This document shows, piece by piece, positions 5,126 to 9,887 of a stretch of 64,000 bases of DNA. Position numbers and translations under genes: made by a program. Positions within the stretch are counted from its first letter, which is position 1; each line of letters starts with the position of its first letter. The stretch covers positions 124,001 through 188,000 of the forward strand of contig CACHEH010000002.1 of NCBI GenBank assembly GCA_902578805.1. The letters run 5' to 3'. The notes under the pieces were generated by a model that searched no databases, was not told the origin of the DNA, and was given only the letters and a program-made list of their open reading frames with translations. Source of the DNA: an uncultured SAR116 cluster alpha proteobacterium. Its GTDB lineage: Bacteria; Pseudomonadota; Alphaproteobacteria; Puniceispirillales; Marisalimonadaceae.

Positions 5126-6421
5126 ATGAGTAATGTAGTTGTTATTGGAACACAATGGGGTGATGAAGGTAAAGGTAAAATTGTTGATTGGTTATCAGAA
5201 AAAGCTAATTTAGTTGTTCGGTTTCAAGGTGGACATAATGCAGGGCATACTCTAGTTGTTGACGAAAAAATTTTTAAATTGTCTCTGTTACCAAGTGGAA
5301 TTGTTAGAGAAAATACAATTGTTTTGATTGGTAGTGGAGTCGTAATAGATCCTTTCCATCTAAAAAAAGAAATTGATGAATTAAAAAATCAAAATATTAA
5401 AATATCTTCTGAAAATCTTATTATTTCAGACTCTGCTTTTTTGATTTTACCCATTCATCAAGTTATAGACCAATTAAGGGAAAATGAAAAAAACAGCGAA
5501 AAGATTGGAACTACAGGAAGAGGTATTGGTCCATCCTACGAAGACAAAGTTGGTAGAAGAGGTTTAAGAGTATGTGATCTTTATGATAAAGATGAATTAT
5601 CTTTAAAACTTTCAAAATTATATGCTTTTCACAATATATGGTTAAAAGCAATGGGTGAACAAAAACTTGATCCTGAAAATATTTTTGAAAATCTTTGGGA
5701 TATAGGTCAGATGCTAAAATCTTATGTTCAACCTTCTTGGCTTTTGATCAATAAATTTAATCAAAATATGTCTAATATACTATTTGAAGGCGCTCAAGGT
5801 ACCTTTTTAGATATAGATCATGGTACTTATCCTTTTGTGACTAGTAGCAATACTACCGCCTCTCAGGCAGGCATTGGGGTAGGTTTAGGTCCAACAGAGA
5901 TAGATTATACATTAGGCATAACTAAAGCCTATACTACAAGAGTTGGATCTGGTCCTTTCCCTACAGAAGATAAAGGTGAAGATGGTATTGCACTTGGAAA
6001 AAAAGGACATGAATTTGGAACAGTTACTGGTAGACAAAGACGATGTGGGTGGTTTGACTCAGTTCTAGTTAGACAAGCTGTGTCTTTATCTAGTATTAAA
6101 GGTATTGCATTGACTAAATTAGATGTTTTGGATGGATTTAAAGAAATTAAAATTTGCACTGAATATCTTTTAGATGATAAAATTATAAAATACCTACCTT
6201 CATCCGAAAAACAACAAACTCGTGTAAAACCTATTTATGAAACTTTAAAAGGGTGGAAAGGAAGTATAGTTGGGATAAGAAACATAAATGATTTTCCTAA
6301 GGAGGTTAAAACTCTCATTAGAAGAATTGAAGAACTTATAGGATGCCCTGTAATATTAATTTCAACTAGCCCTGAAAGATCTGATACAATATATTTAAAA
6401 GATCCATTCAATATAGATTAA
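5126..6421 (+). CDS. purA: Adenylosuccinate synthetase
   Basis: PurA converts IMP, aspartate and GTP to adenylosuccinate, the first committed AMP step. The 431-residue length is exactly usual for the family. Near the N-terminus are the GTP-binding loop TQWGDEGKGK and the GGHNAGHT motif with its catalytic His. Further on are TTGRGIGPSYEDK, the IMP-contact region FEGAQGTFLDIDHGTYP, and TGRQRRCGW, which contacts aspartate. AAGGA at 5114-5118 supports the start. The gene follows hisZ by 30 nt on the same strand, and its last 4 bases overlap the end of rpoH on the other strand. Confidence 0.97.
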   Translation: MSNVVVIGTQWGDEGKGKIVDWLSEKANLVVRFQGGHNAGHTLVVDEKIFKLSLLPSGIVRENTIVLIGSGVVIDPFHLKKEIDELKNQNIKISSENLIISDSAFLILPIHQVIDQLRENEKNSEKIGTTGRGIGPSYEDKVGRRGLRVCDLYDKDELSLKLSKLYAFHNIWLKAMGEQKLDPENIFENLWDIGQMLKSYVQPSWLLINKFNQNMSNILFEGAQGTFLDIDHGTYPFVTSSNTTASQAGIGVGLGPTEIDYTLGITKAYTTRVGSGPFPTEDKGEDGIALGKKGHEFGTVTGRQRRCGWFDSVLVRQAVSLSSIKGIALTKLDVLDGFKEIKICTEYLLDDKIIKYLPSSEKQQTRVKPIYETLKGWKGSIVGIRNINDFPKEVKTLIRRIEELIGCPVILISTSPERSDTIYLKDPFNID

Positions 6422-7326
6422 TCATCTTTGAATTCTATTAAATTAAGTTCTTTGGCCCTATGTTTGACTGCAGCTTGTAGTTTTTCAAAGGCTCTTGTTT
6501 CAATTTGTCTAATTCTTTCTCTACTAACTTTATATTCCTGAGATAGGTCTTCCAATGTTCTAGGATCATCAATCAATCTTCTCTTCACAATGATATCTTT
6601 TTCTCTAGGTTTTAGATGATCTAGAGCTTCGATTACCATTTTATTTTTTATGTTTTTTTCTTCATAATTTTCATATTGGGCTTCTTGATTATCTCTATCA
6701 TCAGTTAATAAATCTTGCCATTCAGCCTCTTCACCATCATTGCGACTAATTGGTGAGTTCAATGAATGATCCCCTCCTAACATTCTTCTATTCATACTAA
6801 TAACTTCATCACGTGAAACATCAAGAGTTTTAGCAATATTATTAACTTGTTTAGGTGAAAGGTCACCATCTTCTAATGCGTTTATTTTACCTTTAATTTT
6901 TCTTAAATTAAAAAATAATTTTTTTTGACTTGCTGTCGTACCAATTTTGACTTGTGACCAGCTTCTTAAAACAAATTCTTGAATCGCTGCTTTAATCCAC
7001 CACATCGCGTAAGTAGCCAATCTAAAACCTTTTTCTGGATCAAATTTTTTAACAGCGTGCATCATTCCAATATTACCTTCAGCAATTAGATCGGCAATAG
7101 GTAAACCATAACCCTTATAGCCCATAGCTATTTTTGCTACCAGTCTTAGATGACTTGTAACAAGTTTATGTGCAGCTTTGGTATCTTGTTTTTCTAACCA
7201 ATCTTTAGCAAGTATATATTCCTCACCAGCCTCCAACATTGGAAATCTTTTTATCTGATCTAAATATCTTCCCAAATTATTGTCTGGTGAAACTAATGAC
7301 AGCTTCATGTTATCTACATTACTCAA
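6418..7326 (-). CDS. rpoH: RNA polymerase heat-shock sigma factor RpoH (sigma-32)
   Basis: This group 3-like sigma-70 family factor directs heat-shock transcription. The 302-residue protein has region 2 (HLRLVAKIAMGYKGYGLP, DLIAEGNIGMMHAV, FRLATYAMWWIKAAI). It then has the RpoH box ASQKKLFFNLRKIK (about residues 132-145), which is diagnostic of sigma-32, and region 4 with the helix-turn-helix TLEDLSQEYKVSRERIRQIE. The start appears to be TTG at 7326, with GGAG 7 bases upstream. An in-frame ATG lies at 7308. rluD is 72 bp upstream on the same strand. Alphaproteobacteria often carry more than one rpoH copy, and I cannot tell whether this is the only one. Confidence 0.93.
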   Translation of the reverse strand: MSNVDNMKLSLVSPDNNLGRYLDQIKRFPMLEAGEEYILAKDWLEKQDTKAAHKLVTSHLRLVAKIAMGYKGYGLPIADLIAEGNIGMMHAVKKFDPEKGFRLATYAMWWIKAAIQEFVLRSWSQVKIGTTASQKKLFFNLRKIKGKINALEDGDLSPKQVNNIAKTLDVSRDEVISMNRRMLGGDHSLNSPISRNDGEEAEWQDLLTDDRDNQEAQYENYEEKNIKNKMVIEALDHLKPREKDIIVKRRLIDDPRTLEDLSQEYKVSRERIRQIETRAFEKLQAAVKHRAKELNLIEFKDD

Positions 7327-7398
7327 ACTACATCTCCAGAATTCATTTCTTATATAATACTTTTTTATATAAATTTAAAGTCTTTAAAAAAATTTGTA

Positions 7399-8412
7399 TT
7401 ATATCTTTAAATTATTAATAAGTGAAGTAATATCTTTAGGCAAATTGCTAGAGAATTCCATATATTTGTTGGTAATAGGATGTGCGAAGCATAATTTACT
7501 AGCATGGAGAGCTTGTCTACTAAAAGATTTAACGAAATTATTTTTTTCTTTAAGAAATTTATTTGTGAAATTTTTACTCCTTAATGGTTTTCCATATAAA
7601 TCATCCCCAATGATACTATGACCTAAATCTGACATGTGAACACGAATTTGATGTGTTTTACCTGTTTCTAACTTACATTCTACTAGACTAGCAAAAGGTG
7701 GGTAAATATCTAAAATTTTCCATTTTGTTATAGCTCTTTTTCCTTTTTGAACAACAGCCATTTTTTTTCTATTTATTGAAGATCTTCCAATAGGTTTTTC
7801 AATAGTACCTTTGTTTTCAGGCTGCCCCCACACTACAGCATTATAACGTCTATCTAAATCATGGTTATGAAATATTTTACATAATTTTGAGTGTGCTAAT
7901 TCTGTTTTTGCAGCCACCATTACACCACTGGTATTTTTATCTAGCCTATGAACGATTCCAGGTCTTTTAACACCACCAATACCTAAAAGACTGTCTCCAC
8001 AATGATAAAGTAAAGCATTTACTAATGTTGAATTAGGAGATCCTGGTGCGGGATGCACCACCATACCTGCTTTTTTATTCAAAACTATTATAAAATCATC
8101 TTCATAAACAATTTCTAATTTTATATTTTCAGGTAAAGGAATAGAAACAGTTGGCTCAGGCAATAATAATTGGATTTTTTCACAGTTTCGAACTTTAAAT
8201 GACGGATTATCAACAATTATACCATCAACAGTAAGGTTTTTTTCTTCTATTAAATTTTTAATTCTACTTCTTGAAAATGAAAAATTCTTTAAATTTAAAT
8301 GTTGTTTTGTTTGATCACTTACTTTAATAGCTTCAGTTATCCAAGTATCAAGACGTTCAAAAGGTATGTTAAAATTTTTAACTAGGAAAGAGATTTTTAT
8401 AGGTGTTGTCAT
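7399..8412 (-). CDS. rluD: 23S rRNA pseudouridine synthase, RluD/RluA family
   Basis: This enzyme isomerises uridines in 23S rRNA (helix 69 for RluD). The 337-residue protein has an N-terminal S4 RNA-binding domain (RLDTWITEA, SRSRIKNLIEEKNLTVDG), a VHPAPGSPNSTLVNALLYH segment, and the catalytic motif GIVHRLDKNTSG, whose Asp is the nucleophile. It ends with a KTHQIRVHMSDLGHSIIGD region typical of the family. I chose the ATG at 8412. It shares the palindromic CATG at 8410-8413 with the divergent gene's ATG. An upstream TTG at 8433 has no ribosome site. The distinction between RluD and other RluA-family members rests on length, the S4 domain and context. Confidence 0.88.
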   Translation of the reverse strand: MTTPIKISFLVKNFNIPFERLDTWITEAIKVSDQTKQHLNLKNFSFSRSRIKNLIEEKNLTVDGIIVDNPSFKVRNCEKIQLLLPEPTVSIPLPENIKLEIVYEDDFIIVLNKKAGMVVHPAPGSPNSTLVNALLYHCGDSLLGIGGVKRPGIVHRLDKNTSGVMVAAKTELAHSKLCKIFHNHDLDRRYNAVVWGQPENKGTIEKPIGRSSINRKKMAVVQKGKRAITKWKILDIYPPFASLVECKLETGKTHQIRVHMSDLGHSIIGDDLYGKPLRSKNFTNKFLKEKNNFVKSFSRQALHASKLCFAHPITNKYMEFSSNLPKDITSLINNLKI

Positions 8413-8812
8413 GTCAAATATATTTAACTCCAAAACAGATAAAAAATCCTCTATAGTTGCTAATATAAAGGTTATAAAAATTATTGCTATTATTTTAGGT
8501 TTACTAATAATTTTAGGTTTAATTCTTTTTTTCTGGGGTGTGGCTAATAGTTTTAAAAAAATAAATAACAGTCAATCAAACATAAGTAGGCCTATTCAAA
8601 TAGATCAAAAATTTGATAAAGAAATTGATTTATACGTACCTAAGAATGCTCAGCTAATATCATCTTCACTGGGGGAAGAAAATCAAATTTTACTAAGATA
8701 TCTTCACAAAGGTAAAAATACATTAGTAATTTTAGATATTAAAACAAAGAAAATAATGTCTATAATAACTTTAAACAAACGTGGTGAATATTTTAATTTT
8801 AAAATTGATTAA
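8411..8812 (+). CDS. Small single-pass membrane protein of unknown function (possibly DUF6476-like)
   Basis: This 133-residue protein has a short cytoplasmic N-terminus with charged residues. One strong transmembrane helix (IKIIAIILGLLIILGLILFFWGV, about residues 24-46, interrupted only at its edges) follows, and then a soluble domain of mixed strands. I do not recognise a catalytic motif. Small proteins of this shape sit next to rluD in other alphaproteobacteria, and DUF6476 is my best but unverified match. The ATG at 8411 has AGGTG at 8401-8405. It overlaps rluD's start codon by two bases on the opposite strand. ltaE follows after 16 bp. Confidence 0.65.
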   Translation: MSNIFNSKTDKKSSIVANIKVIKIIAIILGLLIILGLILFFWGVANSFKKINNSQSNISRPIQIDQKFDKEIDLYVPKNAQLISSSLGEENQILLRYLHKGKNTLVILDIKTKKIMSIITLNKRGEYFNFKID

Positions 8813-8828
8813 CATTTAAGTATATGAA

Positions 8829-9887
8829 ATGACAAAAAATAAAATTTTTATTGGAACTGACACAGTTTCGGGTATTGCTCCTCAGTTATTTGAAGCAGTA
8901 TCAAAAGCCGCTGAATTAAAAACACCACCTTACGGAAATGATGTTTTTACAAAAGAATGTAAAAAAGTTGTAAAAAATATCTTTGAAAAAAATGATTTAG
9001 AAATCATCCCTATGTTTTCTGGTACAGCCGCTAACTCCTTAGCTTTATCGTCTTTTCTCAGGTCTTATGGATGTGTTATTTGTCATAGCGATGCACATAT
9101 CAATAAAGATGAAGGAGGAGCACCAGAGTTTTTTTCTGGTGGTGGCAAATTAATTACTATCTCAAATTCACTAGGACGTATTAAAGCTCAAGATCTTCTG
9201 AATAAAATTGATGAAATAAAGTTTAAAGGGAAATCAAGCCCTGTTATATCAGGTGTATCAATTACACAACTAGCTGAAAATGGAACTTTGTATACACGAG
9301 GCGAAATAGAAGCAATTAGTAAAATTTGTAAAAGAAATAACTTGTATCTTCATATGGATGGAGCAAGATTTTCAAATGCGATAGTCTCTCAAGAATTAAT
9401 ATCTCCTGCAGAGGCTACATGGAAAGTTGGAGTTGATTGTCTTTCACTAGGTGCTACTAAAAATGGTGCCATGGCAGCAGAGTTAATAATATTTTTTAAT
9501 AAAACATTAGCTAGAGAAGCAAGACATCTTATTAAGCAAACTGGACATGTAATTTCTAAAACTAGATTTGTTTCAGCTCAGCTAAATGCTTGGTTTAAAG
9601 ATGGTTTGTGGTTAGAACTAGCTAAGATAGCTAATAAAAATGCTCTATATCTGAGCCATAAATTATCTGAATTCAATGATTTTAAAATTTTATATCCAAC
9701 ACAAGGCAATGAAGTTTTTGTAAAGATGAGTAATTTATCATATAATAATATTATTAAACTGAACATAATTCCAAATTTATGGAACAAAGTTGATAAAGAT
9801 AATTTAGTTGTGAGATTTGTAACTTCTTTTGAAACAACTGCAAGTCAGATAGATGAGATTATTTACAGATTGAAAACTTATTTTTGA
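8829..9887 (+). CDS. ltaE: Low-specificity L-threonine aldolase (beta-eliminating lyase family)
   Basis: The predicted activity is PLP-dependent cleavage of threonine or allo-threonine to glycine and acetaldehyde. The protein is 352 residues, a normal length. It has a fold-type I layout with SGTAANSLAL near residue 65 (phosphate and substrate pocket), LHMDGARFSNA carrying the PLP-binding Asp, and LSLGATKNGAM, in which the lysine after ATK-type context forms the Schiff base. The ribosome site is weak. The gene ends exactly where the convergent membrane-protein gene ends (9887/9888). Other beta-eliminating lyases are possible, but the motif set fits threonine aldolase best. Confidence 0.87.
   Translation: MTKNKIFIGTDTVSGIAPQLFEAVSKAAELKTPPYGNDVFTKECKKVVKNIFEKNDLEIIPMFSGTAANSLALSSFLRSYGCVICHSDAHINKDEGGAPEFFSGGGKLITISNSLGRIKAQDLLNKIDEIKFKGKSSPVISGVSITQLAENGTLYTRGEIEAISKICKRNNLYLHMDGARFSNAIVSQELISPAEATWKVGVDCLSLGATKNGAMAAELIIFFNKTLAREARHLIKQTGHVISKTRFVSAQLNAWFKDGLWLELAKIANKNALYLSHKLSEFNDFKILYPTQGNEVFVKMSNLSYNNIIKLNIIPNLWNKVDKDNLVVRFVTSFETTASQIDEIIYRLKTYF

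Follow-up and report, generated by a model that had tools for sequence, protein, structure and literature searches.

In excludon-type systems, the transcripts of opposite genes overlap at their 5′ ends and antisense leaders run between the two. Head-to-head overlap of the genes themselves is strongly under-represented: the accessible portion of a survey of 58 species counts 331 divergent overlaps, compared to 1890 convergent and 12737 codirectional ones (PMC2174442). Longer overlaps of this type are also suspect, and all 75 of those exceeding 60 bp were judged to be misannotations in one study, as far as its available text goes (PMC2478687). Moreover, divergent bacterial promoters can compete or interfere with each other, according to the excerpt consulted (PMC12825309).

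Here we describe two genes on opposite strands whose start codons occupy a single CATG. The locus lies in a 64,000-nucleotide stretch of DNA, hereafter the window, from an uncultured SAR116 cluster alphaproteobacterium. This window is part of contig C2 of an assembly comprising 1.49 Mb in 60 contigs.

Two divergent genes that begin at one palindrome

The elements of the locus, with coordinates in the window, are as follows.

8410–8413, both strands: CATG palindrome containing both start codons, read from the window sequence
7399–8412, minus strand: rluD, encoding an RluA-family 23S rRNA pseudouridine synthase of 337 amino acids, with its ATG at 8412
8411–8812, plus strand: gene for a small membrane protein of 133 amino acids with one transmembrane stretch (judged by eye), with its ATG at 8411; DUF6476-type by way of relatives
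6418–7326, minus strand: rpoH (TIGR02392, 355 bits), downstream of rluD on the same strand
8829–9887, plus strand: PLP-dependent aldolase-like gene (PF01212), 16 nt past the membrane protein gene on the same strand

The palindrome supplies an ATG to rluD on one strand and to the membrane protein gene on the other, and the overlap of the two starts announced in a preliminary description of this DNA is borne out in the sequence. Nucleotides 8411 and 8412 are common to both coding sequences, a head-to-head overlap of 2 nt. With 5′ bases in common on opposite strands, and with both coding genes conserved in relatives, the two form a divergent overlapping gene pair. Each gene heads a unit of two, with rluD followed by rpoH on the minus strand and the membrane protein gene followed by the aldolase-like gene on the plus strand.

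In profile searches, the rluD product scores 283.8 bits against TIGR00005 (RluA family), above the cut-off, and its RluA-family catalytic domain (PF00849, 3e-33) and S4 domain (PF01479, 1.6e-06) place it in that family. Among the specific models it is nearest to RluD, yet its 276.9 bits against the RluD equivalog NF008385 fall short of the cut-off of 351. We use “rluD” as a working name, because the cut-off for the RluA subfamily was passed and that for the RluD equivalog was failed. The membrane protein of the window gave no family match above cut-off in the same kind of search, PF20082 (DUF6476) included. A counterpart that also lies beside rluD (locus L030), reached by sequence search from the window ORF with an E value of 8.5e-4, passes as DUF6476 with a score of 24.4 against a cut-off of 24. 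It is the one that passes among seven relatives scanned; two (L073 and L076) score below the cut-off and four give no match. An HMM of our own for the plus-strand protein, seeded with 29 PF20082 hits together with members of the genus and order, matches 187 of 218 loci, the seeds included.

Conservation of the shared CATG

The preliminary description had proposed comparing the two starts in relatives. This comparison upholds the arrangement, as CATG serves both frames at 31 of 31 unique loci in the genus, where dinucleotide shuffling predicts 1.7. In two other genera of the family the count is 6 of 6 (0.2 expected), in other families of the order 9 of 17 (4.2 expected), and at class level 31 of 93 (10.6 expected), the last figure including ambiguous starts in G+C-rich genomes. 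These expectations are generous, since the true reading frames were retained in the shuffles and stops were disregarded. On account of the ambiguous starts, a stricter rule was also applied that accepts a CATG only if it contains the rluD ATG closest to the conserved domain, and the counts for genus, other genera of the family, order and class are then 31, 6, 8 and 22. Among all 147 unique junctions, the ATG-to-ATG offset created by CATG occurs 73 times and the next commonest offset 13 times.

The 147 unique junctions derive from 187 loci with a DUF6476-type ORF, uniqueness being judged by identity over a key of 60 nt; L007 and second copies of genomes already sampled shared this key with another locus and were removed. 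The starting set held 218 loci with rluD, from which 31 lacking a DUF6476-type ORF were excluded from the CATG counts; L133 holds no rluD. Of 37 genus genomes searched, eight gave no match to the plus-strand protein and were not counted, because the junction seems not to be assembled in them: rluD has no match in three, matches at paralogue level only in four, and is cut short in one (G026), where the match starts at residue 45. The class sample covers the junctions of 109 of 140 genomes with an rluD-like match (including L081–L109), weaker matches being left out, and its 93 loci include some from families already sampled.

The sampled assemblies also yielded a side observation. In 11 relatives (G014, G022, G002, G006, G016, G020, G008, G088, G018, G001 and G026), the 3′ end of rluD lies 14.61–14.64 kb from the contig start, as if their assemblies break at one conserved place. 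The corresponding place in the window's genome is near C2:116,800. A search of C2:100001–120000 with Rfam at gathering scores found no rRNA, the only hit being a 6S RNA at 7489–7641 of L305 (G000 C2, ∼107.5 kb; 49.8 bits versus a gathering score of 46.4).

Beyond the order, a collection of 80 loci, whose lower rows include non-Alphaproteobacteria, holds 40 with a DUF6476-type ORF at rluD. CATG is present in 21 of these 40, or 19 by the strict rule, with L270 and L274 ambiguous. Carriers include Ruegeria (two), Tritonibacter mobilis, Sulfitobacter mediterraneus, Pseudorhodobacter ferrugineus, Defluviimonas, Nioella, Afipia, Emcibacter, Bombella and others. Among the collection loci, the shared CATG was not found in two Rhizobium rows, Phyllobacterium, Mesorhizobium norvegicum or Bradyrhizobium, and another Mesorhizobium (L274) has it ambiguously. 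Rows from Sphingomonadales and Caulobacterales (L224–L226, L234, L235, L237, L242, L243 and L247) have no DUF6476-type ORF beside rluD, which suggests that the gene was lost or relocated there.

A tree of 101 rluD proteins of at least 240 amino acids was built by a quick method, with 50 of its 98 inner branches left open, and was labelled by the wider rather than the strict CATG assignment. The window rluD falls among named Alphaproteobacteria, and CATG is found in 14 of 16 rows of the clade of Paracoccaceae and Roseobacteraceae (hereafter Rhodobacterales). The label changes 20 times on the whole tree, with at least 6 changes forced by starred branches, whereas shuffled labels average 29.1 changes and none of 500 shuffles was as low as 20. 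Thus, the state is clustered in lineages, yet on this tree it was gained or lost repeatedly, and a single ancient origin does not follow.

Ribosome-binding sites differ between the two genes

One further element bears on how translation of the two genes might begin.

8401–8405, plus strand: Shine-Dalgarno-like AGGTG of the membrane protein gene, with its AGG antisense to RluD Pro4 (CCT, 8403–8401)

The motif begins at 8401, as previously claimed. Shine-Dalgarno matches of at least 4 nt precede the plus-strand gene at 30 of 31 genus loci and rluD at 0 of 31, compared with 826 of 5880 random 20-mers. The reported absence of a visible ribosome site for rluD therefore extends to the whole genus sample when positions 3–12 nt before the ATG are searched, and the nearest GGAG in the window is 15 nt away. 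Starting without a Shine-Dalgarno sequence is ordinary in the window, since 27 of its 57 genes have a match of at least 4 nt at the first ATG (naive starts). RNA folding of both start regions revealed no unusual structure (z scores of 1.13 and −0.35).

Proline is found at RluD position 4 in 30 of 31 genus sequences, and all 30 use the codon CCT. It had been argued that the translation and transcription signals of each gene must lie inside the other, and the AGG, as the complement of this codon, agrees with that claim, as do the blocks of excess synonymous conservation within both genes that are described below.

At class level, Shine-Dalgarno matches precede the plus-strand gene at 13 of 31 CATG loci and rluD at 4 of 31. 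Among the 14 Rhodobacterales loci, rluD has a match at 12 and the plus-strand gene at nine, three of these nine being GGTG only 3–4 nt from the ATG. Loci of this clade such as L240, L249 and L254 are a mirror image of the window, where RluD Pro4 writes the site of the other gene: the initial codons of their DUF6476-type gene contain an AAGGA site for rluD.

Synonymous conservation suggests a putative promoter within each gene

A general scan of 7000–9600 for promoters and terminators returned 15 sites versus 14.4 in shuffles, and hence no excess. Comparison of synonymous positions among genus loci singles out two blocks, listed here with the motifs in them and an insertion in RluD.

8293–8340, plus-facing: excess synonymous conservation at rluD codons ∼25–40, putative promoter of the membrane protein gene
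8302–8309, plus strand: TTGTTTTG, candidate part of this promoter, read from the alignment at 28 of the 31 genus loci
8320–8330, plus strand: TACTTTAATAG, candidate part of this promoter
8447–8494, minus-facing: excess synonymous conservation at codons ∼13–28 of the membrane protein gene, putative promoter of rluD
8462–8467, minus strand: TATATT, putative −10 hexamer of rluD, in 31 of 31 genus loci and also in L057 and L058
8281–8322, minus strand: insertion of 14 residues (31–44) in the S4 region of RluD, seen by alignment and overlapping the putative plus-strand promoter

None of 5000 permutations reached the peak in rluD, and the peak in the membrane protein gene has a permutation p of 0.0002 to 0.008, depending on the size of the codon window. 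The plus-facing block also contains TTTAATAGC, read from the alignment at 30 of the 31 genus loci. Two neighbouring genes served as controls. The aldolase-like gene, downstream of the membrane protein gene, has no synonymous block among 30 loci (p 0.14–0.78), and in rpoH, compared among 27 loci, conservation increases just slightly at the 5′ end (p 0.11–0.30). In the 14 Rhodobacterales CATG loci, the rluD peak occupies codons 17–28, not quite those of the genus, with a p of 0.002 for 12 codons, 0.02 for 8 and 0.05 for 6. The plus-strand gene has a weak peak in this clade (p 0.03, 0.07 and 0.25).

By eye, the matches to promoter sequences are weak, with a spacing of 15 bp for the plus-strand candidate and a poor −35 element for that of rluD. 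The most distant genus member (L029) is without the plus-promoter motif. A further sequence, AAATATATTT at 8416–8425, is symmetrical in the window, but its position is downstream of the plus-strand ATG and some subclades do not retain it.

These data lead us to favor, as the probable arrangement, a shared CATG at which each gene is transcribed from a promoter of its own, located within the coding sequence of its partner, and the mRNAs overlap at their 5′ ends. Judged by the synonymous-site conservation, the two promoters would face each other across ∼130 bp. The plus-strand mRNA would begin near 8335, carry a leader of ∼75 nt antisense to rluD codons 1–26, and obtain its ribosome site from the RluD Pro4 codon. 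The rluD mRNA would begin near 8455 with a leader of ∼40 nt antisense to the opening codons of the membrane protein gene, and would be translated without a Shine-Dalgarno sequence. The two would thereby overlap by ∼120 nt around the shared start. Such a state could last, because a change to the CATG harms at least one start and because the neighboring elements sit in two genes. As a likely consequence of this layout, the rluD(-rpoH) and membrane protein(-aldolase) units would interfere with each other's transcription or pair as antisense RNAs. What the data show is the common start with its conservation, the Shine-Dalgarno asymmetry in the genus and the frozen synonymous blocks; the promoters, leaders and interference are what we infer.

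The insertion in RluD falls between RLD and SRSR. It is missing in four of seven proteins aligned (L102, L108, L098 and L076), and the other three (L066, L061 and L057) also carry insertions. To suppose that it is there for the promoter's benefit is speculation. A broader and in our estimation unlikely proposal is that the protein made room there because the DNA is its neighbor's promoter, and that the facing promoters act as a small interference switch, which Alphaproteobacteria retained or evolved anew on several occasions. Such a switch, if true, would link a unit for rRNA modification and heat-shock sigma factor (rluD-rpoH) to an envelope protein.

Alternative explanations

A simple alternative is that one start is misassigned, with rluD beginning at TTG 8433 or the membrane protein gene at ATG 8366 and the CATG internal. 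In the window, both reading frames extend to these positions without a stop, and an ATG lies 15 codons upstream of the plus-strand gene in 9 of 29 genus loci. Against this, an upstream start is missing for the plus-strand gene in 7 of 29 loci and for rluD in 6 of 29, the rluD frame is closed by a stop 6–13 codons upstream in 11 of 29, and a Shine-Dalgarno sequence precedes 8411 in 30 of 31. The TTG seven codons upstream, named in the preliminary description as a possible rluD start, is present in 3 of 29 loci (L001–L003) and in L042, and thus is not conserved; neither candidate is general in the genus. At all 29 loci the genes abut and the CATG is present, the RluD N-terminus leads directly into the conserved domain, and in 28 of the 29 there is no ATG, GTG or TTG among rluD codons 2–40. 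In L012, L015, L023 and L029, neither frame contains a start other than CATG between it and the preceding stop, and rluD codons 2–40 again offer none. We consider misassignment extremely improbable, and these comparisons make it well supported that two genuine genes begin head to head at one CATG. Separately, the plus-gene matches in L012 and L029 were reported with one TGA each, though the ORFs from CATG are open for 133 and 127 amino acids; judging by position, the TGA of L012 precedes the CATG, and that of L029 is probably at the 3′ end. A different possibility, raised earlier, is that rluD is leaderless, with polymerase using an A+T-rich stretch just inside the membrane protein gene and the mRNA beginning at the ATG. 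The Shine-Dalgarno absence on which this was based holds in all 31 genus loci, and a TATATT in the window stops 4 nt short of the rluD ATG. This distance is small for transcription that begins at the A of the ATG. Furthermore, the A+T stretch varies between subclades (AATATATT versus GATAAGTT), and the hexamer kept in 31 of 31 loci, ∼50 nt upstream, would put the transcription start ∼40 nt upstream of the ATG. The leaderless reading is weakened accordingly, and we regard it as very unlikely.

It is also conceivable that the shared CATG is real but a by-product of packing, reached by drift and then frozen, with synonymous peaks that reflect mRNA or 5′-end effects and no interaction between the genes. 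The coming and going of the CATG state over the class is consistent with this, as are the genus g12 loci L061–L064, which retain CATG and lack both promoter motifs. In addition, low Ks at 5′ ends can arise for mutational reasons in the absence of selection, as stated in the available part of one report (PMC12725619). However, 459 kb of the genome contain 54 divergent ORF pairs with a median gap of 138 nt (naive calls of ORFs of at least 100 amino acids), and the rluD pair is the only one of them to share a CATG. Thus, the genome does not generally pack divergent genes in this manner, though two other pairs overlap by ∼30 nt if the first ATG is taken in these naive calls. Likewise, rluD codons 11–20 are below the gene mean for synonymous conservation and codons 25–40 form the peak, so the latter is not a plain 5′-end gradient, and the rise in rpoH is mild and confined to its very start. 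Such a gradient is harder to exclude for the peak in the membrane protein gene than for that in rluD. Overall, packing without interaction seems possible but rather doubtful, and we retain the arrangement with a promoter inside each gene.

Comparison with known systems

A search of a limited literature collection found no description of a shared CATG at the rluD locus, and no paper on DUF6476. If the promoters are embedded as proposed, the locus would be a clear natural example of coding sequence shaped by the promoter and ribosome site of a neighbor, and would offer a system in which to study transcription interference. The predicted regulatory elements are open to base-by-base testing in relatives such as Ruegeria, Tritonibacter, Sulfitobacter and Pseudorhodobacter.

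Antisense leaders would be a feature that this locus has in common with excludon-type systems, but the overlap here is only ∼120 nt and is predicted from sequence alone. Bidirectional promoters also serve divergent genes whose transcription may interfere. As portrayed in the excerpt consulted, however, they are single pseudo-symmetrical promoters firing outwards (PMC12825309), whereas the rluD locus would have two separate elements that face each other and are intragenic. As with the long divergent overlaps, going by the available text, an overlap at this locus could stem from a wrong start (PMC2478687). In contrast to those cases, it is 2 nt in length and both starts are supported by conservation. 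The closest resemblance in kind is to the divergent pairs of the gene-overlap survey, which are likewise opposite-strand protein genes with overlapping 5′ ends, although here nothing but the two start codons overlaps, and the overlap is found repeatedly at a single locus across much of a class; the accessible portion of that survey contains no account of such a locus (PMC2174442). By the counts in the same portion, a short overlap with both starts supported by conservation here joins the class of gene overlap that is least common in bacteria (PMC2174442). The shared CATG locus is a well conserved member of a known but rare kind, the divergent gene overlap.
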